Source: a virus. Taken from it: a DNA stretch of 23,950 nucleotides. The notes under the pieces are model-generated. The model was not told the DNA's origin. It worked only from the letters and a program-made list of their open reading frames with translations, and did not search any database. Shown here one piece after another: positions 8,779 to 23,573 of this stretch. Positions within the stretch are counted from its first letter, which is position 1. Each line of letters begins with the position of its first letter. Position numbers and translations under genes: made by a program. The stretch is taken from the IMG/VR virus record IMGVR_UViG_3300025815_000109, positions 1 to 23,950 of that record; one strand, given 5' to 3'.

Positions 8779-9062
8779 GTATTGATAACGCTACTCCTGA
8801 AGAGTGGGATACAGTTGCAGCACTTAACAACTTATCTATCAGAAAGAAAGCAGACCCAGTAGAACAACCCGACCACTACAACAAAGGCGCAGTAGAAGCC
8901 ATCGAAGCTATCAAGGCATCCATGCCTGACCATGAGTTTCGTGGTTATCTGAAAGGCAACGCACTGAAGTATCTGTGGCGGTATGATTACAAAGGCAAAC
9001 CCATCGAAGACTTACGCAAGTGTCGATGGTACATTGAACGACTGATTAAGGAATTAAATTAA
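8775..9062 (+). CDS. DUF3310 family protein (95 aa)
   Basis: ATG 8775 overlaps the previous TGA, and AGGAGA (8761-8766) is its ribosome binding site. Residues 33-94 carry the DUF3310 signature: QPDHYNKGAVEAIEAI, then FRGYLKGNALKYLWRY, KGKPIEDLRKCRWYIERLI. In T7 the domain is part of the gp1.7 nucleotide kinase, so a nucleotide-related role is plausible. This protein has the domain and only a short acidic N-terminal extension. It sits directly before the ribonucleotide reductase gene, which fits nucleotide metabolism. Its enzymatic activity has not been shown from sequence. Confidence 0.85.
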   Translation: MSIDNATPEEWDTVAALNNLSIRKKADPVEQPDHYNKGAVEAIEAIKASMPDHEFRGYLKGNALKYLWRYDYKGKPIEDLRKCRWYIERLIKELN

Positions 9063-10933
9063 TGGACGCATATCAACAATACATTCACAAGTCCCGCTAC
9101 GCACGTTACCTACCAGACGAGCAACGTCGAGAGACTTGGGAAGAAACAATCGACAGGTACCTAAACTTCTGGGTTGAGAAAGGTAAGCTTACTCTTGAAG
9201 AAGCTAATGGGATGTTCAAAGACATTCATGATCTAGATGTTATGCCCAGTATGAGAGCGTTGATGACTGCAGGGGAAGCACTAGATCGTGACAACGTAGC
9301 TGGCTTCAACTGTAGCTACCTACCTATTGATCATCCTAAAGCGTTTGACGAGATGATGTACGTCCTGATGTGCGGTACAGGCGTAGGCTTCAGCGTTGAG
9401 CGTCAGTACGTATCCAAACTACCTGAAGTTGCGGAGGAATTTCATGACACCGATACCGTTATACACGTCGCCGATTCTAAAATTGGCTGGGCTAAAGCAT
9501 ACAGAGAACTTATTAGCTTGCTCTATTCGGGTCAGCTTCCAAAGTGGGACGTATCTGGAGTACGATCTGCAGGCGCAGCCCTTAAGACCTTCGGCGGTAG
9601 AGCATCTGGTCCAGAACCTCTTGTCGATCTGTTTAACTTCACCGTTGACGTCTTTCGGGAAGCTCATGGACGTAAACTCTCCTCAATCGAATGTCACGAT
9701 TTGTGCTGTAAGATTGCACAGATCGTTGTCGTCGGGGGAGTGCGTAGAAGCGCTCTCATCAGTTTGTCTAACCTCACTGACGATAGACTCCGACGATGCA
9801 AGTCAGGCCAGTGGTGGCAAGACAATCCTCAGCGTGGCCTAGCCAACAACAGTGCATGTTATACAGAGAAGCCAGACTTTGAGGCATTCCTAAATGAATG
9901 GAAAAGTTTATACGAGTCCCGATCAGGAGAGCGAGGTATGTTCTCTAGAGTCGCAAGTCAAAAGCAAGCTGCAAAGAACGAGCGACGAGATGCTACCTAT
10001 GATTTTGGAACTAATCCATGTAGCGAAATTATCTTACGGCCTTACCAGTTCTGCAATCTATCAGAAGTTGTTGTCAGGGCAACCGATACGTTGTCAGACC
10101 TTAAACGAAAAGTACGTGTTGCGACTATCCTTGGAACTTTACAGGCTACCTTAACTGACTTCCGTTACCTACGTAAGGTGTGGAAGAACAACACTGAGGA
10201 AGAAGCATTGCTTGGTGTGTCGTTAACGGGAATCATGGATCATCCGACGTTGTCGGGAAGGAGGGATAAAGGTGTCCTCAAAACATGGCTTACTGAGTTA
10301 CGTGAAGAGGCTATCGGAACGAATAAATCATGGGCTAACCGACTGGCTATTAATACTTCTACTGCTATTACCGCCGTTAAGCCTAGCGGTACTGTGTCTC
10401 AACTGGTTGATTCTGCTAGTGGTATACACCCACGATACGCACAACAGTACATCAGACGAGTACGAGCAGACGCAAGAGACCCATTGTGTACAGTCCTTGA
10501 GGCCGCAGGAATCCCTGTAGAGGACGATGTAATGTCACCCAGTACCAAGGTATTCTCCTTCCCTATAAAGTCTCCTGACGGGGCTGTGACGGCCTCTGAG
10601 ATGGGTGCTATGGAGCAGTTAGAACTGTGGGAGATTTATCAGGACTTTTGGTGTGAACACAAACCGTCAATGACCTGTTACTACAGGGACGATGAGTTTC
10701 TTGAGGTAGGTCAATGGTTGTACAACAAGTTCGATAAGATCAGTGGTGTATCGTTCTTGCCATACAGTGAACACACATACCAACAAGCACCTTATGAGCC
10801 TGTTGATCTTGAGACTTATGAGAAACTGAAGGCAGAGTTTCCAGAGACTATTGATTGGAACATCTCTGAAAACTCTGATATGACTGAAGGATCACAGACG
10901 TTAGCCTGCACTGGTAACAACTGCGAGATTTAG
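9062..10933 (+). CDS. nrdJ: adenosylcobalamin-dependent (class II) ribonucleotide reductase, NrdJ/RTPR-type (623 aa)
   Basis: This enzyme makes deoxyribonucleotides from ribonucleotides using coenzyme B12, without oxygen or an activating subunit. The catalytic residues match the monomeric class II type: C84 (NCSYL), NPCSE at 318-322 (C320 thiyl, E322), and C331 in FCNLSEV, exactly 11 residues after C320 as in the Lactobacillus enzyme. A C-terminal redox pair, C616 and C621 (ACTGNNCEI), recycles the active-site disulfide. KPSGTVS follows in the barrel. ATG 9062 overlaps the DUF3310 stop. It is shorter than the 739-aa Lactobacillus enzyme. As last gene of the plus-strand operon it supplies dNTPs for replication. 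Its stop overlaps the end of the opposing virion gene by 4 bp. Confidence 0.95.
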   Translation: MDAYQQYIHKSRYARYLPDEQRRETWEETIDRYLNFWVEKGKLTLEEANGMFKDIHDLDVMPSMRALMTAGEALDRDNVAGFNCSYLPIDHPKAFDEMMYVLMCGTGVGFSVERQYVSKLPEVAEEFHDTDTVIHVADSKIGWAKAYRELISLLYSGQLPKWDVSGVRSAGAALKTFGGRASGPEPLVDLFNFTVDVFREAHGRKLSSIECHDLCCKIAQIVVVGGVRRSALISLSNLTDDRLRRCKSGQWWQDNPQRGLANNSACYTEKPDFEAFLNEWKSLYESRSGERGMFSRVASQKQAAKNERRDATYDFGTNPCSEIILRPYQFCNLSEVVVRATDTLSDLKRKVRVATILGTLQATLTDFRYLRKVWKNNTEEEALLGVSLTGIMDHPTLSGRRDKGVLKTWLTELREEAIGTNKSWANRLAINTSTAITAVKPSGTVSQLVDSASGIHPRYAQQYIRRVRADARDPLCTVLEAAGIPVEDDVMSPSTKVFSFPIKSPDGAVTASEMGAMEQLELWEIYQDFWCEHKPSMTCYYRDDEFLEVGQWLYNKFDKISGVSFLPYSEHTYQQAPYEPVDLETYEKLKAEFPETIDWNISENSDMTEGSQTLACTGNNCEI

Positions 10934-13900
10934 TCGAACACACCTTTAAGGGTCTTACCCACTACTGGAAGAGCGTATATTGTTTCATCTGGTAGTGGGT
11001 CTCCTTTAGTTGCTGCTTCACCCATATCTTTTAAGACAGCGGCAGGCAAAGTAGCACTAACAGGCGGGAATATATTAGTCAGCATAGCGTTTGCAGGGTC
11101 TTGCATAAACTTGGTGTAGCCATAATCGTTAGCACCCATAGCACCCAAGGTAAGTACTGAACCTATCTGATACAAAGCACCAACAGCAGCTTCTTCAGGG
11201 TTTGGTGCTTCTCCTTTCAACACTTGACGACCTTCGTTGACAACACCGAAACCACCACCAGAAATAACTAGGTACTTCATTGCGTTATTAAGTGCTTCTT
11301 TTTTGTTACCTTGTTGCCACTCTCTAAAGATACGACGTTCCATTAGATCAAGCTGTTTGACAGCAAAACCTTTTAACATGTAAAAGATTCGTGCGTTAGG
11401 AGTTTTAAGTCCTGCTGAAGTCTGGGCTGCTGGGTTGATAGGCTGTAGCCTGAACAGATCAAACATCACAAGATCACGAACAAGTTCACTGTTAGTATCA
11501 CCAGCAGCTATATCTCTTTTAAGTTGATCTAGTTCCGCCTTACTAAAAGTGTTAGCCCACTTACTATCAAACGACCCTCTAGCCATGTCTTGCTTGGCCT
11601 TGTTAAAAGAAGCACCCATGATCTTTGTCTTACCGAACTTATCAAGACCAGAAAAACCAGAAGCTTTCATAGACCATTCAAGTAAATCTTCACTGCCCTT
11701 AGCTAGTTTTTCTAGGAACTTAACTCCTGTTATAGAGCTATCACCTTTAGTAGACCGTCTAATAAACTCACCAAAGACCTGCCTAGCCAGACCAACATCA
11801 TCAGCAGAAAGACGTATATTGTTTTTACCAAAGACAGACTTAAGTACGTTACCTACACCTAACTCAAAAGCAGCGTTGAATAAATCGTGTACGTTCATCA
11901 ACGCACCGTAAGGGTTAGCAATAGTACCTACATATCCCAAGCTTCTAACAACTTCTAGCTCTTGAGACATACCCCTGTTAGCGTTAACGCCTAGGTCATC
12001 TAGTATTTCAATAGCGTTTTTAATTTGTAGATCAGAAAGACCTTCGCGTTCCATTGCTTCACGTATGATCTTCTCATCAAACAACTTAAAGGAATCGCTT
12101 TCAAGTTTAGCTGTTGCTTCTAAGGCAGTCATCTCACCTTTCTTGACTTTTTTCCTAAGACGCTTTGGCAGCTTATCAACATCTAACGCTACAGTAGGCA
12201 TACCAGATGTACGGAAACCTAACTGCTTACCTAGCTCCATACGTGTAAGAGTTTCTCTTTGCCAACGCCAATGAGAATCAAAGATGTTAGCGTACTCTAG
12301 CTCATCTCCGTCTAGCTTTGCTCGCTCCTCTTCCATAGACTTACGACTACGTTTCTTACTAGCTACGTCCTCTGCTTTACCAGCAGCTCTTGCCCTGTTG
12401 ATACGCAAACTAACATCGTCATCTACATACTTTAACGCAGAGTGCAGCCACACATCTGACAAAACACCAGCAGTCACTTCTTTACGATAACGACCGTTAA
12501 ACTCTACGTTATCATCAAAGAACTTTTGCAGTCTTTCACCAGCACCTTTACCTATTTTAGCATCAGCGTATTTCTTAGCGGCTTGTAAAGATTTTGCTGC
12601 TGCTTTGGCCCCAATGTTTGTTGCATTAACAGCATCCAACATCAAGTCATTAAACTTAACGTCATCCGCTAAGTTTCTTAGACCTTCCATACCCTTCCAC
12701 ATTTCGTCTAGCTCAGACTGACCACGAACTACACGGTTCATTCCACGAATAATACGAGAAGAGAATGCTGGACCTACTACTGTTTCTGCTAAGGTAGCCA
12801 GTGGTGATGCAAAACGCCGAAACTTAACAATGCTGCTTTGTGCTTCCGGTATTGTTCTTCCTTTATCTATAGATAGACGACCTGCTGCTAGGTCTAGCAA
12901 GTCTTCTCTAAAGGCGTTAAGCTGTGTAACATCATCAAAACCCCTGTTAGAATCTTTAATTAATTGCTTAACTCTTTTGTTCTTACCTACAACCTTAGCT
13001 GCCTGCTTACCACTAACACCCATCTCTTCTGCATAACGCATCAAACGAAGCATTGTGTTACCTAGTGCATTAGGATCAGTACCTTGTCGCCCTACTGCGT
13101 CAGCAAGAAACTCAGTCTCTCTAATAATTAACTGGTCAACAAGATCATCGTCCGTTAACTCTGCGGTTGGTCTGGTTATTTTTTGTCCAGACACGGCAGT
13201 CTGTAACGCATCAACTTGTTGTGTGTGTAAGGTATCTGGATTTGTAGATGTTTTTACAAGATTAGGATTAAAAACAGAATCAATTATTTTACCTACACTA
13301 CCACCTACTAATGCGCTAGTGCTGCCTAAAATTAACCGTTCTTCTGCAGATTCTCCTGAAGCAAAACCGTATGTACCTGCCTCTATCGCACCTTGTTTAG
13401 GTAGGCTGACAATGCCTGCTCTGGTTAAAAGGGCTGTGCTTAAAAATGCTGAAGGAATAATACCAACCGTTTCTGCAGCTACAGCAGCGCCGGGATTAAG
13501 ATAAGAAAACTCTTCCCTTTCCCTGTTAATCCTGTCTTTCTCAACAGAGTAAGAAGTGTCGTTTACCTTAGATGCGTATAAAGCCTCTAGTTCGTCTGCG
13601 GTTTGTAAAGATAAACCACCAGCTATTTCACGAAGAACCCCTATACCCTCTTCAGATTTAGAGTTTCTGTAGGCGTTTACTTTTTCTTTCAAGCTGTCAG
13701 ACAAACCAGCCATTGCATCTTCTTGTTCAACAACGTCTGGTTTAGAAACTTCAGATAGTCTTTGATTCAATTCTGCAAAAGCATTAATCTTTGCCTTAAG
13801 AGATTCAGAAATGTCTACGTCTTTTAAAACACCACCTATATCTGAACGCTTTACATCACCTATACGTGGTCCTCTAGCTGCTTCAAATTCTTCACGGGTC

Positions 13901-14388
13901 ATCCCGTAAGTACCCATAGGACTAATTTCTTTACGAACAGGGGCTAAAGTAGTATCGGGTTTGGCGACACTAGGTCTTTCAGGAATTGAAACAGACGGTA
14001 AAGATGGCTTTGACTGAGCCATTAAGTCAGTAAGGGTAACGTCAGGTTTATCAACGCTTACATCAGGAAGCTCTCTAGACTCTAAAGCATATCTAGCACG
14101 ATCAACAACTTGCTTAAACATGCTGGGAGTTTTATCAAAGTCCGTATCAAACTCATCACCGGGCTTGACAAAAAACTCTATCTTAGTAGCATCTTGCGGG
14201 GTAATGCCTAGTATCTTACCAACAGAAGCTTCGTCTGTTTTCAGTACAGCCGCTACCTCTTTTAAAGTAGCACCAGCATCTACTGCTTGACGCGCTAGTC
14301 TAGGTATAGCTTTTTTAGGGTTCTTAAAATCTTCCCTATCATCTACATTAGAACTTTTAGGTTGTTTACTAACGGTTGCTTTAGCCAT
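10930..14388 (-). CDS. large internal virion / DNA-ejection protein, gp16-like in position (1152 aa)
   Basis: This is the last gene of the minus-strand virion operon, in the place and size class of T7 gp16 (1318 aa). The start CAT at 14386-14388 follows a GAGG site. The N terminus is basic and disordered, with a helix-turn-helix-like segment at about 30-62 (LARQAVDAGATLKEVAAVLK...). Residues 64-250 are low-complexity with Pro, Ser and Asp. At 255-370 there is a pattern seen in large phage ejection proteins: TADELEA, a charged helix, YLNPGAAVAAETVG, a hydrophobic stretch, GAIEAGTYGFASGE, and a glycine-rich repeat (GSTSALVGGSVG) that could insert in membranes. The remainder is mostly helical. 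No lytic transglycosylase motif is evident, unlike T7 gp16. The function is inferred from order and composition. Confidence 0.65.
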   Translation of the reverse strand: MAKATVSKQPKSSNVDDREDFKNPKKAIPRLARQAVDAGATLKEVAAVLKTDEASVGKILGITPQDATKIEFFVKPGDEFDTDFDKTPSMFKQVVDRARYALESRELPDVSVDKPDVTLTDLMAQSKPSLPSVSIPERPSVAKPDTTLAPVRKEISPMGTYGMTREEFEAARGPRIGDVKRSDIGGVLKDVDISESLKAKINAFAELNQRLSEVSKPDVVEQEDAMAGLSDSLKEKVNAYRNSKSEEGIGVLREIAGGLSLQTADELEALYASKVNDTSYSVEKDRINREREEFSYLNPGAAVAAETVGIIPSAFLSTALLTRAGIVSLPKQGAIEAGTYGFASGESAEERLILGSTSALVGGSVGKIIDSVFNPNLVKTSTNPDTLHTQQVDALQTAVSGQKITRPTAELTDDDLVDQLIIRETEFLADAVGRQGTDPNALGNTMLRLMRYAEEMGVSGKQAAKVVGKNKRVKQLIKDSNRGFDDVTQLNAFREDLLDLAAGRLSIDKGRTIPEAQSSIVKFRRFASPLATLAETVVGPAFSSRIIRGMNRVVRGQSELDEMWKGMEGLRNLADDVKFNDLMLDAVNATNIGAKAAAKSLQAAKKYADAKIGKGAGERLQKFFDDNVEFNGRYRKEVTAGVLSDVWLHSALKYVDDDVSLRINRARAAGKAEDVASKKRSRKSMEEERAKLDGDELEYANIFDSHWRWQRETLTRMELGKQLGFRTSGMPTVALDVDKLPKRLRKKVKKGEMTALEATAKLESDSFKLFDEKIIREAMEREGLSDLQIKNAIEILDDLGVNANRGMSQELEVVRSLGYVGTIANPYGALMNVHDLFNAAFELGVGNVLKSVFGKNNIRLSADDVGLARQVFGEFIRRSTKGDSSITGVKFLEKLAKGSEDLLEWSMKASGFSGLDKFGKTKIMGASFNKAKQDMARGSFDSKWANTFSKAELDQLKRDIAAGDTNSELVRDLVMFDLFRLQPINPAAQTSAGLKTPNARIFYMLKGFAVKQLDLMERRIFREWQQGNKKEALNNAMKYLVISGGGFGVVNEGRQVLKGEAPNPEEAAVGALYQIGSVLTLGAMGANDYGYTKFMQDPANAMLTNIFPPVSATLPAAVLKDMGEAATKGDPLPDETIYALPVVGKTLKGVFD
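10957..11000. terminator. candidate hairpin at the convergent junction
   Basis: A 9-bp perfect inverted repeat, ACCCACTAC (10957-10965) and GTAGTGGGT (10992-11000), can extend inward by two G-T wobbles, a G-C and an A-T pair. It begins 23 bp after the reductase stop, inside the 3' coding end of the minus-strand 1152-aa gene. The plus strand downstream is only modestly T-rich (CTCCTTTAG), so it is not a canonical intrinsic terminator. It could slow or stop readthrough in either direction, where no non-coding space is available. Confidence 0.35.
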
Positions 14389-14395
14389 GGAAACC

Positions 14396-15508
14396 TCAGT
14401 ATAAAGCTATGCCACCACCACCGGCGACAAGATTAGGATCAATAGGACCAGCACCTGTTAAAATACGTGCTTGAGACTCTGCTTGTTCTAATGTAAGTCC
14501 TTGCTCATCCATTAAGTCTTTAACGATACTGTCAAATAGTTGTTGTTGCAGCCTTTCGTTTTCGTCAATAGCTTCTGATTGTTCCTGACCTTTTATTTTA
14601 CGACGCATACCAGACATAGCAAAGTCAATTAATTCTGTCTTGCCTTTGATACCCTGTTTAATGCCTAATGCCATTTGTTCTTGAAAAACTTCTACCTCAT
14701 CTTCTGTACCGCTGCCTGTTAAAAAATCATGAATGTCGCGGTTGCCCATCCAGTCTTGCCAGAAATGAGTATTAGAACCTGCGTTTATAAGATCTTCTGT
14801 AATTATCCTTGCTTGTCTGTCATACTCTTCGTCAGAATACATAGCGTCTGTTTTTTGTTTCTGATCAGCATCAACAGCTTTAACAACAGCAGACACAGCA
14901 GCCTTTCTTTCAAAAGTAGATTTAGGTTCCGTTGAGTTAAGTGTGTCGATGTGTTGCTGAAGCGACGGGACTTTTTCCAATAAATCAGGATTGTTATTAA
15001 CATAGTCTGCATAATATCCTGTTAATTCCATCGCACTTTTAGAAGCCGCTGCACTTTCTTGTTGCTCTCTTTTTAGATTAGCCTCTTTTAAAATATCGTC
15101 ACGCAACCTTGGAGGAATAACTATTTCTTCTTCTCCTACTTTTAAAGTAGTAGGCACTTCTGTTTGTTGATTTGCTAACATACCGTTAGAAACAAAATCA
15201 ATTATTTTTTTATCGTCTCTTACTTGTATTTTAGCTGCTCTTTCGGCTTGATTAAAAGTATACTGGTCTCTACTAGCTGTTAATCTAGCAGCTTCGTCGT
15301 ACTTACCAGCTTTGTTTAACTTATCAATAGCAAAGTTAAATCTTTGCGTAGGGTCCATAGCAGCAAGTTGTTGTTGCTCTGCTTGTTGCTGCTGTTGTTG
15401 CATACGAAGAGCAGGAGCCTGACCAATACCACGCGCAGCAGTAAACAAACCCTCTTGATAAGAAGGCTGTAACAGACCCTGTAAGAATGTTTGTGAAAAC
15501 TTAGCCAT
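14396..15508 (-). CDS. probable internal virion protein, gp15-like in position (370 aa)
   Basis: Starts at CAT 15506-15508 with AAGGGATTAATC upstream, 2 bp after the previous stop. The N terminus (MAKFSQTFLQGLLQPSYQEG) leads into a glutamine-rich run (RMQQQQQQAEQQQL, about 36-49) encoded by CAA/CAG repeats. The rest is charged and helical (KLNKAGKYDEAARL, EEYDRQARIITEDLI, ENERLQQQLFDSIVKDL). It ends in a glycine-rich VAGGGGIALY tail. It is far shorter than T7 gp15 (747 aa). Order between two other putative internal proteins suggests a core or ejection component. Sequence alone does not prove it. Confidence 0.55.
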   Translation of the reverse strand: MAKFSQTFLQGLLQPSYQEGLFTAARGIGQAPALRMQQQQQQAEQQQLAAMDPTQRFNFAIDKLNKAGKYDEAARLTASRDQYTFNQAERAAKIQVRDDKKIIDFVSNGMLANQQTEVPTTLKVGEEEIVIPPRLRDDILKEANLKREQQESAAASKSAMELTGYYADYVNNNPDLLEKVPSLQQHIDTLNSTEPKSTFERKAAVSAVVKAVDADQKQKTDAMYSDEEYDRQARIITEDLINAGSNTHFWQDWMGNRDIHDFLTGSGTEDEVEVFQEQMALGIKQGIKGKTELIDFAMSGMRRKIKGQEQSEAIDENERLQQQLFDSIVKDLMDEQGLTLEQAESQARILTGAGPIDPNLVAGGGGIALY

Positions 15509-15510
15509 GA

Positions 15511-16788
15511 TTAATCCCTTCCAAATATGTTACCGAACAATCCGCCAAGACCGCTACCAACACCTTCTATAATTTCACCTATATTACCAAAACCGCCCGG
15601 ATCAATAACAGTACCGGACTTAGTAACCTGCGGTGTAAACAAACCAGCAAGAATGTTAGATCCTATGCCGCCTAGTAAGTTAGCACGTGCTTGCTCTGCC
15701 AACAATCTAGACTCAATACCAGACAACGCAGTCTCACCAAAGAGTCCTGTACCGTACAACTGAGCTTGTTGCTGTAGCTCTGCCATGCGCTGTGCTGGTT
15801 GCGCTGCTGCTAACAGCTGTGCCTGCGGTAGATAGCTTGCACCAAGGAACTGCTGTCCTAGTCCTGCTTGTTGTGCCTGCTCTGCCTGAGCCTGCTGCAT
15901 AGCGCCTAGCATGGCTCTGTTACGGGCTTCTTCTTGCGCTGTAGCCATAGCCAGCATTTCAGGAGTAGCACCACCGTAGGCAGCAGAGCTAACACCAAGT
16001 CTACCTTGCCCTGCTAAACGCTCTTCAAGTGCTAGACGTTGACGTTCCTCTTCAGGACGTTGTGCTGCTCGCATACGCTCAAAGATAGCCTGCTCACGTG
16101 TTGCTGTAGGCATCTGTGCTTGACCGAAGAAGTCACCTGCACCGCCAAACAACTGTTGTTGCATAGCTTGCTCTTGAGGTGATAACGTCATACCTACTTC
16201 AAGACCGCCTGTAGTTGGTTGTTGCTGAGTAAGTCGTTCTTGATTCATTATTGAGCGTTTTAATTGTTGCATTGCGTCTTGTTCTGCGGCAAATCTTGCT
16301 CCGCCTTGAGGTATCATTGGACTTGCGTCATAAGACCTTATAGCGTTTTGAAGAAGGCTGTCATATTGCGATTTTAAGGCAGGATCTGTTTGCATCATTT
16401 GCGGCAAATCTTGAAGTAACTGATCGCCTCTTGACATAACGCCTGAACCCACGCCACCTAAAGGAGGTAACGCCATTGATGGAGGTGCTGTTGGGCTAGG
16501 AGCAAAACCACCGGGACTTGTTACTGGCATTGTTGGTTGACCACCCATACGTGTAGTAAACATAGCACCTGTAGGAGTAGTCACCGTAAACGGTTTAAAC
16601 TGTGACCCAGCAAGACCACGCTCTGCAAGCCCCATTGCTGCCGCTTCAGCCTCACGACCAACATCACTTAGCCTGTCATAAGCCTCACCTGTTAACAATG
16701 TACCTGCAATGGCAGGAATTGCTGGTGATAAAGCAGAACCTATGTCCTGTATATTCCCAAAAATATCACTAAAAAATCCATTACTCAT
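15511..16788 (-). CDS. probable internal virion protein, gp14-like in position (425 aa)
   Basis: ATG at 16786-16788 overlaps the preceding stop as ATGA. The N terminus (FFSDIFGNIQDIGSALSPAIPAIAGTLLTG) and the C terminus (GGFGNIGEIIEGVGSGLGGLFGNIFGRD) are glycine-rich and hydrophobic, as expected for a protein that inserts into membranes. In between is a Pro/Met-rich linker (about 78-115) and a long Gln/Ala-rich helical region (EEARNRAMLGAMQQAQAEQA, LLAAAQPAQRMAELQQQAQ). Position after the gp12-like tail gene matches T7 gp14 (196 aa) or P22-type ejection proteins. It is an inferred ejection protein. Confidence 0.6.
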   Translation of the reverse strand: MSNGFFSDIFGNIQDIGSALSPAIPAIAGTLLTGEAYDRLSDVGREAEAAAMGLAERGLAGSQFKPFTVTTPTGAMFTTRMGGQPTMPVTSPGGFAPSPTAPPSMALPPLGGVGSGVMSRGDQLLQDLPQMMQTDPALKSQYDSLLQNAIRSYDASPMIPQGGARFAAEQDAMQQLKRSIMNQERLTQQQPTTGGLEVGMTLSPQEQAMQQQLFGGAGDFFGQAQMPTATREQAIFERMRAAQRPEEERQRLALEERLAGQGRLGVSSAAYGGATPEMLAMATAQEEARNRAMLGAMQQAQAEQAQQAGLGQQFLGASYLPQAQLLAAAQPAQRMAELQQQAQLYGTGLFGETALSGIESRLLAEQARANLLGGIGSNILAGLFTPQVTKSGTVIDPGGFGNIGEIIEGVGSGLGGLFGNIFGRD

Positions 16789-18308
16789 AGCAGTTTACCT
16801 ATCAAAGCCATTACGTTAATCTCCTGAAGTGACAGTGGTGAGCCATCTATCTCTGACTCTAGACCTACCTGCACACTTGTTCCATATCCGGTGGTGTTGA
16901 GGCTACGCTGGTTTGTTAGCTGACCACCTGTAAATTCTACTGTTGTATACTCACTTTCACCGTAGAACCCAGTTATCTGCGTACCTACCGTAAACTCTGT
17001 TGTTGCGTATGTTGTATCAAAATCATAAGCCCACTTCATAAATACAACTGAGTTGTTTGCACCAACCAGTGTAGGCTTTAGCTTCTTTAATATTTTAATT
17101 CTAGCACTATCACCAAATGTCAAGCTTGGACTGTAGTATTTAAATCTGTAACCACTGCCGTTATCGCTGTAACCTGTATACGTACTGATACCGTTAGTTG
17201 TACCTACGTGTAGCGTACCGTCTTCTAATCGTGTGTACGATGTAAACTTAGTTGACGGCCAACGAGTCACACGGTATGATCCATTCTCTAACGTACCTCG
17301 TACATCGAAACAATACGTTACATCCTGACCTGTAAAGGTTAACAGGTAGAATCCTTCTTCTGGGCTGTATACCGATCTAAAGAACTGTGTCTCGTTCTGC
17401 AGTGCAGCAATAATATCTTTTGTAATGTTGCCGGACAAGCTGCTGATAGGCATTGACTTTTCTTGTATTGTTCTACCAAAGCTCTTAAGTCCCGTGTGTG
17501 ACAAGAACAACACGTCTGTACCAGTGTACTGCACAGTGTCCCTGTTGACGCAACCAATGCCTGCTACGGTATCTGACAAAGTCATAGAAGCAGGAGAAGT
17601 AGCACCGTCGTACACAATGATGCTGTGCTTACCAAAGATAATTAACAGACCGTTGTGTGCTGCTAAAGCTACAATCTCGTCGTAACCGTCAGGCCATACC
17701 TTGGACACGTCAATGTTTCCGCTAGAGCCTCCTGACCATGCTGCTCCGTCTAACAAATCAGACCAATAGATAGTGGACTTGTTAGTACTAAAGTCCGCAG
17801 TCCACAAACGGCCATACGCCGCTAACACCTCATGACCGTACATAGTACTAGCAACGCCAGTAGCATGAGGATGACTTGACAGTGCTTCTACAGACCCTAC
17901 GTGATTAGAGTAAACCAAAGGCTCATAACCACGTTGAAAGAAAAACAAATGGTCATTAAAGTTAACAATCTTCCAGTCGTTAGCGCTAATTGAGTAACCA
18001 CCGGGAGTCTCGTCTACTAGTGTAGTTGTGCCGCTGATAATCTTGTTGTTACCAACAGAGAATATCTTGGTGTTTCCTGCGTCGTCCCTATATTCTTTGA
18101 TGCTGTACAAAGAATCAGTACCAAGTACAGTCTTGTTTGTTGTTACAACAGTGTGGCCCTTACGTGCAGCAATACGACCACGTTTGTCAATCACGGCGTT
18201 GTCTGCAATCTCTGCAAACGACGGATCTTGAGCCAACGGCGAGTCTTCGGTGTTAACACCTTTGAATGCCGGAGCTACAAGATTAATACTCTTAAGTTCT
18301 TGAGCCAT
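16785..18308 (-). CDS. tail tube/stabilisation protein, gp12-like in position (507 aa)
   Basis: The start was set at CAT 18306-18308 (MAQELKSINLVAPAFKGVNT). A longer frame to 18437 would overlap the previous gene and begins with an artefactual hydrophobic stretch. The INLVAPAFKGVNTEDSPLAQ opening and ADNAVIDKRGRIAARKG segment are features I recognise from marine podovirus tail proteins annotated as tail tubular B or P22 gp10-like. The body is all-beta with repeated aromatic and Gly-rich turns, as in a beta-propeller (WSDLLDGAAWSGG, TYCFDVRGTLENG, GTTNGISTYTG). It would form the tail tube or plug below the adaptor ring. It follows the gp11-like gene by 1 bp. T7 gp12 is longer (794 aa), so a P22 gp10-type role (about 470 aa) is an alternative. 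Confidence 0.7.
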   Translation of the reverse strand: MAQELKSINLVAPAFKGVNTEDSPLAQDPSFAEIADNAVIDKRGRIAARKGHTVVTTNKTVLGTDSLYSIKEYRDDAGNTKIFSVGNNKIISGTTTLVDETPGGYSISANDWKIVNFNDHLFFFQRGYEPLVYSNHVGSVEALSSHPHATGVASTMYGHEVLAAYGRLWTADFSTNKSTIYWSDLLDGAAWSGGSSGNIDVSKVWPDGYDEIVALAAHNGLLIIFGKHSIIVYDGATSPASMTLSDTVAGIGCVNRDTVQYTGTDVLFLSHTGLKSFGRTIQEKSMPISSLSGNITKDIIAALQNETQFFRSVYSPEEGFYLLTFTGQDVTYCFDVRGTLENGSYRVTRWPSTKFTSYTRLEDGTLHVGTTNGISTYTGYSDNGSGYRFKYYSPSLTFGDSARIKILKKLKPTLVGANNSVVFMKWAYDFDTTYATTEFTVGTQITGFYGESEYTTVEFTGGQLTNQRSLNTTGYGTSVQVGLESEIDGSPLSLQEINVMALIGKLL

Positions 18309-18309
18309 A

Positions 18310-18957
18310 TCAGATAGTCCTAAATACCATCTCTTCAGGGTGCTTTGCTGCGTCAATAGCAATAGCGTCAGACAAGTACTGGTTAGCAATAGTAAAGTAC
18401 TCAGCAGTAGACGTACCGCCTGTCTCACCACGTTCACGTGCCAACAACGCTACAGCAAGGTGTATTACTGGCATAGCAGGAATAAGCAACTCATCAGTGT
18501 TAGCACTCAAATCTGCTTGTCGCTTAACAGTGTCTACACGAATACTGTACACACTGTCTGGTGTTGGGCCTACAAGGATCTGTGTGTCGCCATTAGAGTC
18601 CAACCCGTTGTACGTGTAGTACCGTGGTGTGCCTTCTGCTGCACTGCTAATGTACAATTGCTCGTTAAACCAGTCTTTAGTTTGATACTCCATAAAACAG
18701 TTTTCAGTATCGTTGAGCATTGACATAACTTTAATATTGTCACCACCACCTGTCAGCGAGTATGTATTGTCTGACGCAGTAGTAGATATTGTTATAGTCT
18801 CACGCAACGCAGACCAATCAGCTGCCTGACCTACCAGTGTCTTAGCATCATTAATAAAGTCACCTACCATTTTAACGTAGGTTGTACTGGTAACAGACGA
18901 TGTTTCCTCTTCACGAAGTCTGCGTAGTACACTGTTCATAAGGTTAAGATATGTCAT
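18310..18957 (-). CDS. head-tail adaptor / tail tubular protein A, gp11-like (215 aa)
   Basis: ATG 18955-18957 overlaps the preceding TGA (ATGA), with AGGA upstream. The N-terminal helix MTYLNLMNSVLRRLREEETS, then VKMVGDFINDAKTLVGQAADW and SALRET, is the usual opening of phage adaptor/tubular A proteins. T7 gp11 is 196 aa, so the length fits. The middle is beta-rich (NTYSLTGGGDNIKVMSM, YYTYNGLDSNGDTQI). The C terminus is helical (PVIHLAVALLARERGETGG). It should form the ring joining portal to tail tube. The order next to the gp12-like gene supports this. Confidence 0.75.
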   Translation of the reverse strand: MTYLNLMNSVLRRLREEETSSVTSTTYVKMVGDFINDAKTLVGQAADWSALRETITISTTASDNTYSLTGGGDNIKVMSMLNDTENCFMEYQTKDWFNEQLYISSAAEGTPRYYTYNGLDSNGDTQILVGPTPDSVYSIRVDTVKRQADLSANTDELLIPAMPVIHLAVALLARERGETGGTSTAEYFTIANQYLSDAIAIDAAKHPEEMVFRTI

Positions 18958-21900
18958 ACCAGCATTCCTGTTTGTCTGCCAATAAATTTATTAAGTTCGC
19001 TCAAAGCGTCTGTTTGTTTTTGTGGAGCAAGTGCTATAGGTGTTAAAGGTTGGAATGGGCTAAGACCTTTAAGGAACGGATCAAACTCTACAGGCTGTCG
19101 TGGCATTGCTGCTGCAATCTCTTGCGCTGTTGGTTGTGCCGATGCAAGACCTAACAAACCTACGCCTAATGCTTGACCAAGGCCTGTAATACCTTCACCA
19201 AGACCTGTTACTTGTTCTTCTAAACCAGATACTTGTTGTTGTACTACATCAAACTGCTCACCAAACTGAGACTGTAGACCACCTTCAACTTCTGCAAGTT
19301 GTTGTAGCACACCAGATTCTACGCCTGTGATTTGTGACAACAAATTAGCTTCAGTATCTGATAAACTTGTAGCAAATCCTTGCTCTGCTTCTTCAAGACG
19401 TTCTGTTAGTGACTGCTCAGTTTGCTGTGTTGTTTCTTCAATAAGCTCTCGTAATGCTGCATCTTGAGTTAACATGCCTTCACTAAGAGCGTTTAAGTTA
19501 ACACCAACACGTAGACTTAATTCATCAATACTGAGACCTAGCTCTTCATAACGCTGTCTACTTGCTTCATCTAGTTCCTCAATGCGACCACCAGCACGTA
19601 TAACATCCTCAGCAACACGCGCTACATCTGAAGTAAGCGTGCCTAGTTGACCGCCAAGAGCAGCACGTTCTTCAGCAGCAATGTCAAGTTGTTCGCCTGT
19701 CTGTTGCTCATAGGCGTCAATTCGATCAGTTAGACGTTCATTAATGCCTTCTATTTGAGCAGCAGTTTCACCTCTAACGCCTGTAATCTGCTCTGTAAGT
19801 TGATCACTAAGCCCTTGATTACGTGCAATAGCAGCAGCTTCAGAAGCAGACAACGTTGCTAAAAACTCTGATCTAAGTCCTGTAAGTTCTTCTAACTGTT
19901 GTGCAGTATTAGCATCAATACGTTCTTCAAGACCTGTTATCTGTTGTCCTAAACGAGATTCTACATCAGTTATATCTACACCTAATGTGTTTAACTGCTG
20001 TTGTAAACCTCCAGTTTGAGCAGATATTTCTCTAAGAAGTTCTGCATCACCGCCTGTTATTTCAGCTAACAATCGCGCTTCGGCTTCAGTAAGTTGCCTA
20101 GCTTGTCCTTGTGCTTGGGCTTCTAATGCGTCTTGCAGACTTGCTTCTACGTCACGTACTTCACCACGAACACCTGCAATAGATGTTTCTAGTTGTGTTT
20201 GTACTTGACCTAAATCAGTACCTAACTCGTTAAGTCTTGTATTTAGACCACCTTCAACTGTAGATAGTTGTTGCAAAACACCTGCTTCAACACCTGTTAT
20301 TTCTGATAACAACCGTGCTTCTGCTTCTGTTAACTCTCTTGTTTGTCCCTGCTGTGCTGCTTCAATAGCGTCTCTAAGACTGCTTTCTACTCCTGCAATT
20401 TCTTCTCGTACAACACCAAACTCTTCCTCAGCGTATTCTTGTAAAGCATCGGTAGCTTCTTCTGCACTTAAAAGACCTTGCTCAAGACGATCAAAATCAA
20501 CACCAAATTCTTCAGCTAAACTATCTACTGTTATATCAAGTTCATCAAAACGTTCTTGTGAAGCAGCATCTAAGTTTTCAACTAAACCGCCTACTTCAAT
20601 TAAATCTTGAGCTAACTCGTATCGTTCTTGTTGAGCCTCTGTTAAACCAGCCTGTAATTCTTCACGAACAACGCCCAACTCTTGCTCAGTATATTCACGT
20701 AATGCGTCAGTAGCTTGTGCTTGTGATATTTGACCATCACGTAGTTCTTGAATATCAACATTAGTACCAGCAAAAAGTTCTTCTACAGTTTGATTTGTAG
20801 CTTCAAATCTGTCGCGCATTTCTTCGCTAAGGTTTTCAATGTTACCATTAGCTGCAATCCAAGCTTCCATTAACTCTTGGCGTTCTTGTTGAGCCTCTGT
20901 TAAACCAGCTGCAAGCTCTTCTCGTACAGCGCCAAACTCTTGTTGAGTATACTCACGTAGCGCATTAGTAGCTTCTTCTTGACTAAGCTGTCCTGAACGT
21001 AACTCATCAATGTCAACACCAGTACCTTCAAACATCTCTTGCATTGTTTGATTTGATTGTGCAAGTAAGTCACGCATCTCTTGACTAAGCTCTGTAGTCT
21101 GACCACGTGCTTCAACAATAGCTTCCATAAGACGCTGACGATCTTGTTCTGCTTGAGTAAACCCTGCTTCTTGACTGGCTCTTATGTCTTCACGTTCTGT
21201 CGCAGCTTGTTGCAGTCCTTCTTCTAGACCACTAACGTTCTCTGCAAGATCGCTTACAACTTCATTAACACCACCAAGGTCTTCAATAATCTGTTGTTGA
21301 TTAGAATCTAACTCTTCTATTTGACCACCTTGACGAACAAACTCTTGCAGTGTTTCTTGTTGTTGTTCTGTTAAAGTACCTATTGCAGTTTGTATACCTG
21401 CTGTTTCTAAGTCTTGGTCTTCAAGAGATTCTAGTACAGGCTGTATGTATTCATCTAACAATTCACGTACAACGCTGTCTTCAAAACCTGTAGCTTCTTG
21501 TGTTGTATCAGCAAGTATGTCTTCTTCTGGCAATTCTTCATAACGACTTAACTCTTGCTCTAAAGACTCTCTAACTTCTGGATCTTCTTCTCTTTCGATT
21601 GCCTCGCGTAACTGATCTATAAAGCTAACATCAGACGGTTCAAAGTTTAAGTTTCCAGTAGCACTAGCTCCTATACCGCTTCTTGTTGAATTAAAAACAG
21701 AATCTACGGCGTTTACCGTTGCCTGAGTAGCATCATATAACCAGTCAGGAACTTCAGGCATAACGGAAGCTATTTGTGAAACTATAGTTTGTCCTTCTTG
21801 TATTATTGCTCCTGTCTCAGAAGATAATGCAAACCAAACGCTAGAATCTACTCCGGTTGACTCAATAATATTTCCGGCAGCGTCTCTAACAACTTGACCA

Positions 21901-23174
21901 AGAACATCTCCGTTAGCACTTACAAGTTGATCTGTTGTAGTGCTATTAACAGCATCTCCAATTTGACCAAATACTTCACTTTCTCTTAAAGAATTCATTG
22001 CTGTGTTGCTTAAGAAAGAAGTTGCAGCAGCCCGTAAAGCACCTTCAGGATCTATTTGTCCTGTTGTTAACAACTGTGTTGCTGCATTTACAATGGAAGA
22101 GGCAGCAGCATTTGCAGATAGTGCAGCAGCAGAACCAGCAACGGCATTGGGAGCTATTGCACTAGCAATTGCAGGAGTTGCTACTACACTAAGAGCAATT
22201 GCAAAACCTAATTTAGCAATGTCTCCTATGTTAACACTATCATCTATCTTATTAGTTTTAACGTAGGCAGATCCGTTCCATTTAAAACTATCTCCATCGC
22301 TATTATACATTGTACCTTCTACGCCATACTTAGCTAGAAGAGCTTGGTTGGCTTCAGAGTTAACCCAACGGTCATACGCAGATGATTGCTCCTGCATTTG
22401 CTGACCATACAACTCTGTGTAGTCAGACTGAGCATCATCACCGTATTGAGTAAGATCTTCGCCCTCAAGAATCATCAACTCATCTTCAGTTAGTCCTCCG
22501 GTGTATTCATCCCAGTTACCAACATCGTAATCACCAGCTTGAATTAACCCCTCTCGCTCAGTCATGTAAGCAAGATAGTTATCAAAGTCACCGAAGGCTT
22601 GCTGAAGCATTCTAGAGCCTTCGTCATTGAAGTACTCACGTAGCTCAGATTCTGTTACTTGTGTTGCGTCACCTCTTTTGTATAAAAAATCAGGATTTGC
22701 ATCACCTAACTCAACACCTTTAAAAAATGTAAAGGTAGTTACGCCTTCTGGTTCTGGTGCAGGTTCAGCATCTTTTGTATCTGGTAAAGGCTTAGGTGGA
22801 GCAAGCTCTATTTCAGGCTCTGGAGCAGGTGCAGGCGCTGGTGGTTCAGCGTTAGGGTCAAACGGTCCAGTTTCACCGGGCTGAGTCTTTGTAGGATCAC
22901 TGCTAGGCGTACCTACAGGTGCAGTTTGTTGTGGAGCAGGAGCAGGTGTTGGTACTGGAGCATTAGGATCGAATGGCCCAGACTTTCCCGGCATCTGCTT
23001 GGGTGGTGAACTAGGCGTACCTACAGGACCAGTCGGAGCGGGTGCTGGTTGTTTAGTAGGAGCAGGCTTAGTAAGCATACCTTCCCTGCCTTTTACAGGC
23101 ACATAGCCAACAGGAGTAAACTCAACAAGCTGCCCGTTTATCTCTAAAATGTCACCGTATCTTGGAGTTGCCAT
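18954..23174 (-). CDS. giant repetitive coiled-coil virion protein (1406 aa), function unknown
   Basis: The start CAT 23172-23174 follows GAGGGAAAAG and abuts the holin stop. Residues 30-145 are Pro/Ala-rich and contain a 36-residue duplication (PVGTPSS...GPFDPNA, at about 50 and 86). Residues 150-310 look globular. Residues 313-370 are hydrophobic and Ala-rich (GFAIALSVVATPAIASAIAP), possibly membrane-interacting. Residues 515-665 are acidic helices. Residues 671-928 are three tandem 86-residue units, and 929-1088 are two 80-residue units of another family. Diverged copies follow at about 1176-1261 and 1271-1324. The C-terminal 60 residues are non-repetitive and Pro-rich. The main region is a coiled coil rich in Glu, Gln, Leu and Thr. 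It may be a tail fibre, tape-like or ejection protein. Position before the adaptor gene marks it as a virion protein. Confidence 0.6.
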   Translation of the reverse strand: MATPRYGDILEINGQLVEFTPVGYVPVKGREGMLTKPAPTKQPAPAPTGPVGTPSSPPKQMPGKSGPFDPNAPVPTPAPAPQQTAPVGTPSSDPTKTQPGETGPFDPNAEPPAPAPAPEPEIELAPPKPLPDTKDAEPAPEPEGVTTFTFFKGVELGDANPDFLYKRGDATQVTESELREYFNDEGSRMLQQAFGDFDNYLAYMTEREGLIQAGDYDVGNWDEYTGGLTEDELMILEGEDLTQYGDDAQSDYTELYGQQMQEQSSAYDRWVNSEANQALLAKYGVEGTMYNSDGDSFKWNGSAYVKTNKIDDSVNIGDIAKLGFAIALSVVATPAIASAIAPNAVAGSAAALSANAAASSIVNAATQLLTTGQIDPEGALRAAATSFLSNTAMNSLRESEVFGQIGDAVNSTTTDQLVSANGDVLGQVVRDAAGNIIESTGVDSSVWFALSSETGAIIQEGQTIVSQIASVMPEVPDWLYDATQATVNAVDSVFNSTRSGIGASATGNLNFEPSDVSFIDQLREAIEREEDPEVRESLEQELSRYEELPEEDILADTTQEATGFEDSVVRELLDEYIQPVLESLEDQDLETAGIQTAIGTLTEQQQETLQEFVRQGGQIEELDSNQQQIIEDLGGVNEVVSDLAENVSGLEEGLQQAATEREDIRASQEAGFTQAEQDRQRLMEAIVEARGQTTELSQEMRDLLAQSNQTMQEMFEGTGVDIDELRSGQLSQEEATNALREYTQQEFGAVREELAAGLTEAQQERQELMEAWIAANGNIENLSEEMRDRFEATNQTVEELFAGTNVDIQELRDGQISQAQATDALREYTEQELGVVREELQAGLTEAQQERYELAQDLIEVGGLVENLDAASQERFDELDITVDSLAEEFGVDFDRLEQGLLSAEEATDALQEYAEEEFGVVREEIAGVESSLRDAIEAAQQGQTRELTEAEARLLSEITGVEAGVLQQLSTVEGGLNTRLNELGTDLGQVQTQLETSIAGVRGEVRDVEASLQDALEAQAQGQARQLTEAEARLLAEITGGDAELLREISAQTGGLQQQLNTLGVDITDVESRLGQQITGLEERIDANTAQQLEELTGLRSEFLATLSASEAAAIARNQGLSDQLTEQITGVRGETAAQIEGINERLTDRIDAYEQQTGEQLDIAAEERAALGGQLGTLTSDVARVAEDVIRAGGRIEELDEASRQRYEELGLSIDELSLRVGVNLNALSEGMLTQDAALRELIEETTQQTEQSLTERLEEAEQGFATSLSDTEANLLSQITGVESGVLQQLAEVEGGLQSQFGEQFDVVQQQVSGLEEQVTGLGEGITGLGQALGVGLLGLASAQPTAQEIAAAMPRQPVEFDPFLKGLSPFQPLTPIALAPQKQTDALSELNKFIGRQTGMLV
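19911..20390 (-). repeat. two 240-bp units (80 aa each) of a second repeat family
   Basis: Units lie at 20151-20390 and 19911-20150. Both carry VE(S/A)SLxDAxEA, then LTEAEARLL(S/A)EITG, then LN-LG-D. A diverged third copy (EANLLSQITGVESGVLQQL) is encoded near 19200-19360. The repeat unit differs from the 86-residue family that it directly follows. Confidence 0.8.
20391..21164 (-). repeat. three tandem 258-bp units (86 aa each)
   Basis: Units lie at 20907-21164, 20649-20906 and 20391-20648. Each begins with G(F/L)T(Q/E)A, contains V-D-(I/F)-x-x-L near the middle, and ends with EYxxxExGxVREE. A 29-bp stretch is identical at 20623-20651 and 20881-20909, exactly 258 bp apart, which shows recent duplication or gene conversion at DNA level. 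A diverged fourth copy is encoded around 19392-19649. Confidence 0.9.
22903..23027 (-). repeat. 108-bp duplication in the proline-rich head of the 1406-aa protein
   Basis: A 17-bp DNA stretch is identical at 22903-22919 and 23011-23027, 108 bp apart. It corresponds to the 36-residue protein duplication PVGTPSS followed by GPFDPNA and a Pro/Ala run. Simple proline-rich repeats of this kind usually form flexible linkers. Confidence 0.75.
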
Positions 23175-23573
23175 TTACTTTTCCCTCGACACGCCTTTGG
23201 TTTTTTCATAAGAGCGCATAGCACCAAGACCAAGCATACCCATCAGTACAGGCATCATAGTCTCTAGGTCAATGAGTGGTATAGTGACTTCAATAGCCAA
23301 CAGAGCTAGTACAAAGTTGGTAAACGGTATAACCATAAAGTTACCCATCATACCCAAGACACAACACCAGCCTACTGCAGGTCTCCAACCAGAGACAAAC
23401 AAGGACTTATGTGCCGCTTCTACTTTGTTAACCTCTAGCTGTGCCTTAGCAAGCTCCTGAGCGTGTCTCTGAGCCATTGTAGCAACTTCATGGGCCAGCC
23501 TAGCCTTCTGGTCCTTGTCCTGCACAAACTTGTCTAGAAGCCCTGTAACAGGCCCTATGAGCGACTCAATCAT
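23175..23573 (-). CDS. holin, 3-TM family (132 aa)
   Basis: ATG 23571-23573 overlaps the preceding gene's stop (ATGA). Residues 1-60 form an amphipathic, charged helix (DKDQKARLAHEVATMAQRHA). LFVSGWRPAVGWCC (58-71) begins the first membrane segment, followed by hydrophobic stretches at about 70-83, 85-101 and 105-120. The SGWRP motif before the first TM is typical of the three-TM holin family first known from gene transfer agents. Holins open the inner membrane at lysis. No endolysin is present in this window. The neighbour upstream is a small one-TM protein, and downstream is the 1406-aa virion gene. Confidence 0.8.
   Translation of the reverse strand: MIESLIGPVTGLLDKFVQDKDQKARLAHEVATMAQRHAQELAKAQLEVNKVEAAHKSLFVSGWRPAVGWCCVLGMMGNFMVIPFTNFVLALLAIEVTIPLIDLETMMPVLMGMLGLGAMRSYEKTKGVSREK

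Follow-up and report, generated by a model that had tools for sequence, protein, structure and literature searches.

The window, that is, the whole 23,950-base stretch of the IMG/VR record analysed here, recurs as an identical stretch in a 37.7-kb contig. Because this contig has terminase genes twice, once at each end, the full genome is probably about 35 kb long and circularly assembled. Profile scans of part of the ORFs matched terminase, portal, capsid, adaptor and nozzle genes, and long-tail genes were absent from these matches. The DNA polymerase encoded in the window shares 50% identity with its counterpart in Pelagibacter phage HTVC103P. HTVC103P-type phages are described as having morphogenesis genes of the HMO-2011 type (PMC8528129), but the portal encoded here matches that group only distantly. 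The ribonucleotide reductase (9062-10933) is 94% identical to that of genome G005, and since the DNA polymerases of the two are just 59% identical, a recent exchange is suggested.

One gene of the window encodes a giant modular protein of 1406 amino acids and, as an earlier note on this DNA had stated, it is located between a holin and an adaptor gene, both of them recognised by profile matches (Table 1). Its start lies one base past the holin gene, and it shares 4 nt with the adaptor gene. With dozens of relatives and purifying selection in its core (dN/dS about 0.06-0.14), it is not a chance ORF. On the other side of the adaptor gene comes a gene for a tail nozzle-like protein; its longest ORF (16785-18437) has a GTG start within the adaptor gene, and the true start probably lies near 18320, giving 511 residues. 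Proteins of 425, 370 and 1152 amino acids are encoded after the nozzle gene, in the slots of the T7 ejection proteins. No Pfam or PHROG profile names them, and they are candidate ejection proteins by position only. Among close relatives the 1152-aa and 370-aa proteins (10930-14388 and 14396-15508) are very diverse, their conservation being often confined to a small part of their length. Finally, a separate 1017-aa protein of the same genome, encoded with the capsid gene on one side and the lysis genes on the other, has many PHROG tail-fibre matches together with a Peptidase_S74 match (3.3e-11). To judge from these matches it is the standard fibre of this phage, and the giant protein is not the main one.

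Table 1. Positions of the giant gene, its modules and its neighbours in the window
Feature	Position	Strand	Basis
Tail nozzle-like protein, 511 aa	16785..18320	-	phrog_5107, 3287, 578 and 511
Adaptor (gp11/gp4-type)	18310..18957	-	SU10_adaptor 6e-15; 4-nt overlap with giant gene
Giant modular protein, 1406 aa, complete gene	18954..23174	-	ORF with ATG start; relatives at the same syntenic place
N-terminal beta mini-domain, residues 1-30	23085..23174	-	AF2 strands 9-12, 15-20 and 23-26, pLDDT 73-87
GMLT short motif, residues 32-35	23070..23081	-	recurs close to the N-terminus in nearly all relatives
Pro-rich linker, residues 36-145	22740..23069	-	36 Pro; 36/37-residue duplication
Conserved compact core domain (TFTFF ... 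WNGSAYVKT), residues 146-310	22245..22739	-	AF2 pLDDT mostly 70-95
Hydrophobic Ala/Gly/Ser-rich helical segment, residues 311-420	21915..22244	-	hydropathy; AF2 helices, pLDDT about 55-66
Variable junction, residues 421-560	21495..21914	-	high column entropy; pLDDT mostly under 50
Long amphipathic helical shaft, residues 561-1340	19155..21494	-	periodicity, 86- and 80-residue repeats, charge
Non-repetitive C-terminal peptide ending GMLV, residues 1341-1406, putative docking end	18957..19154	-	family-wide C-terminal alignment
Holin, directly upstream of giant gene	23175..23573	-	GTA_holin_3TM 4e-21; PHROG holin 1e-36

Architecture of the giant protein

Most of the architecture outlined in the earlier note was recovered. 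The Pro-rich linker does contain a duplication, in which PVGTPSS...GPFDPNA is present twice at an offset of 36-37 residues, and the hydrophobic stretch reaches a hydropathy maximum of 2.04 in a 19-residue window beginning at residue 322. The non-repetitive C-terminal segment was likewise borne out and is conserved among relatives. The coiled coil of about 800 residues stood in part. Residues 560-1340 contain a single Pro in 781 residues, together with 72 Gly and internal repeats of 86 and 80 aa, and their hydrophobicity has a period of 3.62 (peak 1.58, against 0.51 for the best of 100 shuffles), with only 0.57 of power at the heptad value of 3.5. These features support a long amphipathic helical rod of about 780 residues, which may follow a hendecad-like pattern; a classical heptad coiled coil is not established. 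The shaft has a net charge of -121, in contrast to the downstream proteins, and the protein as a whole is strongly acidic (81 K+R versus 260 D+E).

Structure prediction, which the earlier note had proposed, was done with AF2 on monomers, and the fold searches were made with residues 1-580 of the window protein and with one whole relative. The models gave beta strands within residues 1-30 and a mostly well-predicted core, and no significant fold match: Foldseek against viral models and the PDB returned nothing at E 0.001 or better, and in a second look at the PDB, Z was at most 5.4, below the level that is meaningful for helical models, with nearly all matches falling on the hydrophobic helices and beyond (residue 311 onward). 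That no fold match was found for the core domain in these searches is not evidence of a new fold. In the relative folded whole, no C-terminal strands were predicted, but pLDDT there was low, and the model may be in line with the earlier view that no beta-rich tip is visible; in the window protein the C-terminal 66 aa form a short peptide.

Sequence searches were equally sparing. The whole protein had no match among 50,697 public phage records, residues 141-425 had none there even at E 10, and no relatives were found in 84,980 species genomes. Pfam and PHROG gave nothing at cut-off. Matches to Baculo_PEP_C and Apolipoprotein lay below it and were treated as composition, and the sole PDB sequence match, an apolipoprotein at 0.0077, was judged a generic amphipathic-helix match. 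Thus, homology to a characterised tail fibre or to a non-virion protein, against which the earlier note had set its proposal, was not found at significance in Pfam, PHROG, the PDB or cultured phages.

An exchangeable family beside the adaptor gene

In IMG/VR, by contrast with these collections, a scan with the whole protein found 71 loci and a scan with the core profile found 209 matching stretches (about 200 relatives); in alignment A1 the core domains are 48-88% identical to that of the window. Does the family belong to this genomic site? Of the 549 relatives returned by an adaptor-only scan, the top 80 were retained. In all 37 distinct loci that were new in this adaptor-selected set and had enough upstream sequence, the gene immediately upstream of the adaptor gene encodes a family member and overlaps the adaptor gene by 4 nt. 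In a wider set, 76 distinct upstream ORFs carry the core and the C-terminal motif, 15 are cut at the 5′ end so that the C-terminal motif alone is visible, and one complete ORF (L180) has the C- and N-terminal modules with a different head. The C-terminal family motif is found on every one of these upstream ORFs, although the profile used was built from family members and so tests presence at the site rather than giving independent proof of homology for the cut ORFs. On these sequence comparisons the gene belongs to an undescribed family that is represented at this position in all the related phage loci that were checked.

Within this fixed place the protein is extensively exchanged. The N-termini of the relatives fall into several unrelated types, the module of residues 1-30 being swappable, and yet a GM[LFMVI] motif persists near the N-terminus although the sequence around it changes: 64 of 67 distinct N-termini have it, where shuffles would give 3.7, and so do 46 of 55 distinct C-termini, where shuffles would give 1.6, although related sequences inflate such counts. 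The idea that other virion proteins share the motif, which might then reveal a partner, was discarded, as strict GM[LF] matches outside the giant family comprised only ribonucleotide reductase and two further late proteins. The hydrophobic stretch is part of the family consensus and is usually kept. The shafts, helical in the window, are of entirely different types among relatives: Glu/Lys arrays in L130, Arg/Glu arrays with Pro-Glu repeats in L133 and L139, Asp-Gly and collagen-like repeats in L061, Pro-Gln/Glu repeats in L112, and collagen-like plus helical segments in L007, L024 and L028.

Some members are rearranged further. L180:297-4217 retains the same kind of N-terminal module as well as helical repeats and the C-terminal peptide, with an unrelated head that replaces the core and that itself had no match in the public phage records. 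L133, L138 and L139 have about 490-540 residues ahead of the core, among them helical Arg/Glu arrays and extended Pro-Glu or Pro-Ala stretches, and in L112:832-3165 the small N-terminal module (YHVGNMTFPDIQSARAYDY...) is repeated mid-protein.

Complete family members range from 771 to 2042 aa. Length that varies with repeat content, together with conserved short motifs at both ends, would suit a role in setting the length of a tail or core structure, as a ruler or scaffold, one of three options in the earlier note, but this 2.6-fold variation, the complete change of shaft chemistry and a set of named structural genes that is of the short-tail type, with apparently no long tail to measure, make such a role highly improbable.

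The neighbours behave differently. Across loci the holin is 87-100% identical where present, and the adaptor and nozzle proteins are mostly 65-98% identical. In loci whose adaptors are 94-98% identical to that of the window, and whose holins are 94-100% identical where present, the giant proteins are often just 33-55% identical, over part of their length. The mean distance of the core is 0.43 versus 0.05 for the holin, and core distances follow neither those of the adaptor (correlation 0.01) nor those of the holin. The C-terminal end does follow the adaptor: rho is 0.52 for the last 60 aa and 0.36 for residues 60-150 from the end, with hardly any correlation beyond 150 aa (0.12 to -0.04). Because the C-terminus is the part physically nearest the adaptor gene, linkage may explain some of this correlation. 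However, the far end of the nozzle gene, more than 1.5 kb away on the other side of the adaptor gene, still correlates at 0.80 with the adaptor, so the steep drop within the giant gene is more than DNA distance alone would explain. From this we infer that the C-terminus is part of the tail cassette and serves as the docking end, although the drop could also be read as the mark of a recombination hot spot in the repeats.

These patterns also bear on a late non-virion role. Since the giant gene begins one base past the end of the holin gene, and the holin and small membrane proteins are encoded next to it, the product might be part of the lysis block or be displayed on the surface of the infected cell, to which the Pro-rich linkers of the family and a weak TonB match in one relative could also be fitted. 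Moreover, its putative place in the virion is read from gene order, and the possible "new virion machine" of the earlier note accordingly exceeds the evidence. The 4-nt overlap and the co-inherited C-terminus nevertheless tie the gene to the adaptor, and the core does not track the holin. We therefore regard a lysis or cell-surface role as improbable.

A possible second fibre and its known counterparts

What, then, might this protein do? Our preferred reading, to which we give about an even chance, is that a short-tailed marine phage has here a second, modular fibre, probably trimeric and attached by its C-terminus. The chains would associate along the long helical shaft, most likely in threes, and the C-terminal 60-150 residues would dock on the tail, at the adaptor or the nozzle. 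The shaft would act as a spacer whose chemistry matters little, keeping the exchangeable head formed by the N-terminal modules (beta mini-domain, Pro-rich linker, core domain and hydrophobic helices) at a distance from the particle, where it would touch the host envelope, while ordinary receptor binding would be left to the S74-type fibre. We favour a fibre because shaft types known from fibres, collagen-like ones included, occur in the family (Pfam Collagen in 6 of 18 relatives, with matches also to PHROG tail-fibre and collagen-like minor-tail families), because mosaic hypervariability stands beside nearly invariant neighbours, because the protein is strongly acidic, and because three other genes occupy the T7-type ejection protein slots. 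Several observations weigh on the other side. The PHROG and collagen matches probably stem from low-complexity repeats and not from the core, the diversity of the proteins after the nozzle gene indicates that hypervariability is not specific to fibres, and no recognisable receptor-binding domain was found in the profile and fold searches. A hydrophobic segment is not what one usually finds in an exposed fibre, and the polarity suggested here is opposite to that of known tail fibres, which mostly dock via their N-terminus.

The hydrophobic stretch, being usually kept, is also what makes an ejected trans-envelope protein the main rival. Held inside the particle or in its channel, like a tape measure or the T7 inner core, the protein would leave with the DNA and line a passage through the host envelope, with the hydrophobic stretch inserted in a membrane and the shaft reaching across the periplasm. 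The long helical architecture and the adjoining adaptor gene are compatible with such a conduit, another option of the earlier note; 2 of 18 relatives matched tape-measure PHROGs, and several tape measure proteins are among the low-ranking fold matches of the relative, none of them significant. On the other hand, neither a muramidase nor another ejection-protein domain was found in 18 relatives with Pfam, the acidity of the giant protein would be unfavourable beside packaged DNA, and collagen-like and Asp-Gly shafts would be unusual for such proteins. Ejection-protein profiles matched the giant protein as little as they matched the candidates encoded after the nozzle gene. An ejection role thus seems possible, though somewhat unlikely.

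If the protein is a second fibre with swapped shafts, evolution treats shaft chemistry as interchangeable and keeps the ends, and the family would point to a protein for host contact in uncultured marine phages that form a widespread group. A bolder extension, which we consider rather unlikely, is a class of appendages of reversed polarity, in which a C-terminal peptide is fixed to the tail, head and shaft chemistry are freely exchanged, and a rod of tens to more than 100 nm carries a distal hydrophobic head that touches or enters the host membrane.

How does the protein compare with known systems? Siphovirus tape measure proteins are also very long and helical, with a hydrophobic segment and conserved ends, but the giant protein comes from an apparently short-tailed phage, belongs to a family with swapped shaft chemistries, and had no significant tape measure profile match in Pfam or PHROG. 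With the T7 ejection proteins gp14-gp16 it shares neighbours in the virion cassette and a hydrophobic stretch, whereas it is acidic and other genes occupy the gp14-gp16 positions. Like the T7 gp17-type tail fibre, it has a long helical shaft and is encoded in a podovirus late operon. Unlike gp17, it has no gp17-like N-terminal domain among its Pfam and PHROG matches and no visible beta tip, in accordance with the earlier statement that this is not a standard T7 fibre layout; its docking would be C-terminal, and its gene lies upstream of the adaptor gene, while that of gp17 follows the ejection proteins. The P22 tail needle gp26 is likewise a long helical rod on the tail, where the giant protein is proposed to dock as well, but gp26 docks by its N-terminus and the giant protein would do so by its C-terminus; the giant protein is also much longer and had no PDB sequence match to a needle. 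Collagen-like and S74-type phage tail fibres resemble the giant family in their modular, repeat-rich shafts, with collagen-like segments in some relatives; the window protein itself differs in having neither a Gly-X-Y repeat nor an S74 chaperone by Pfam, the S74 fibre of this genome being a separate gene.
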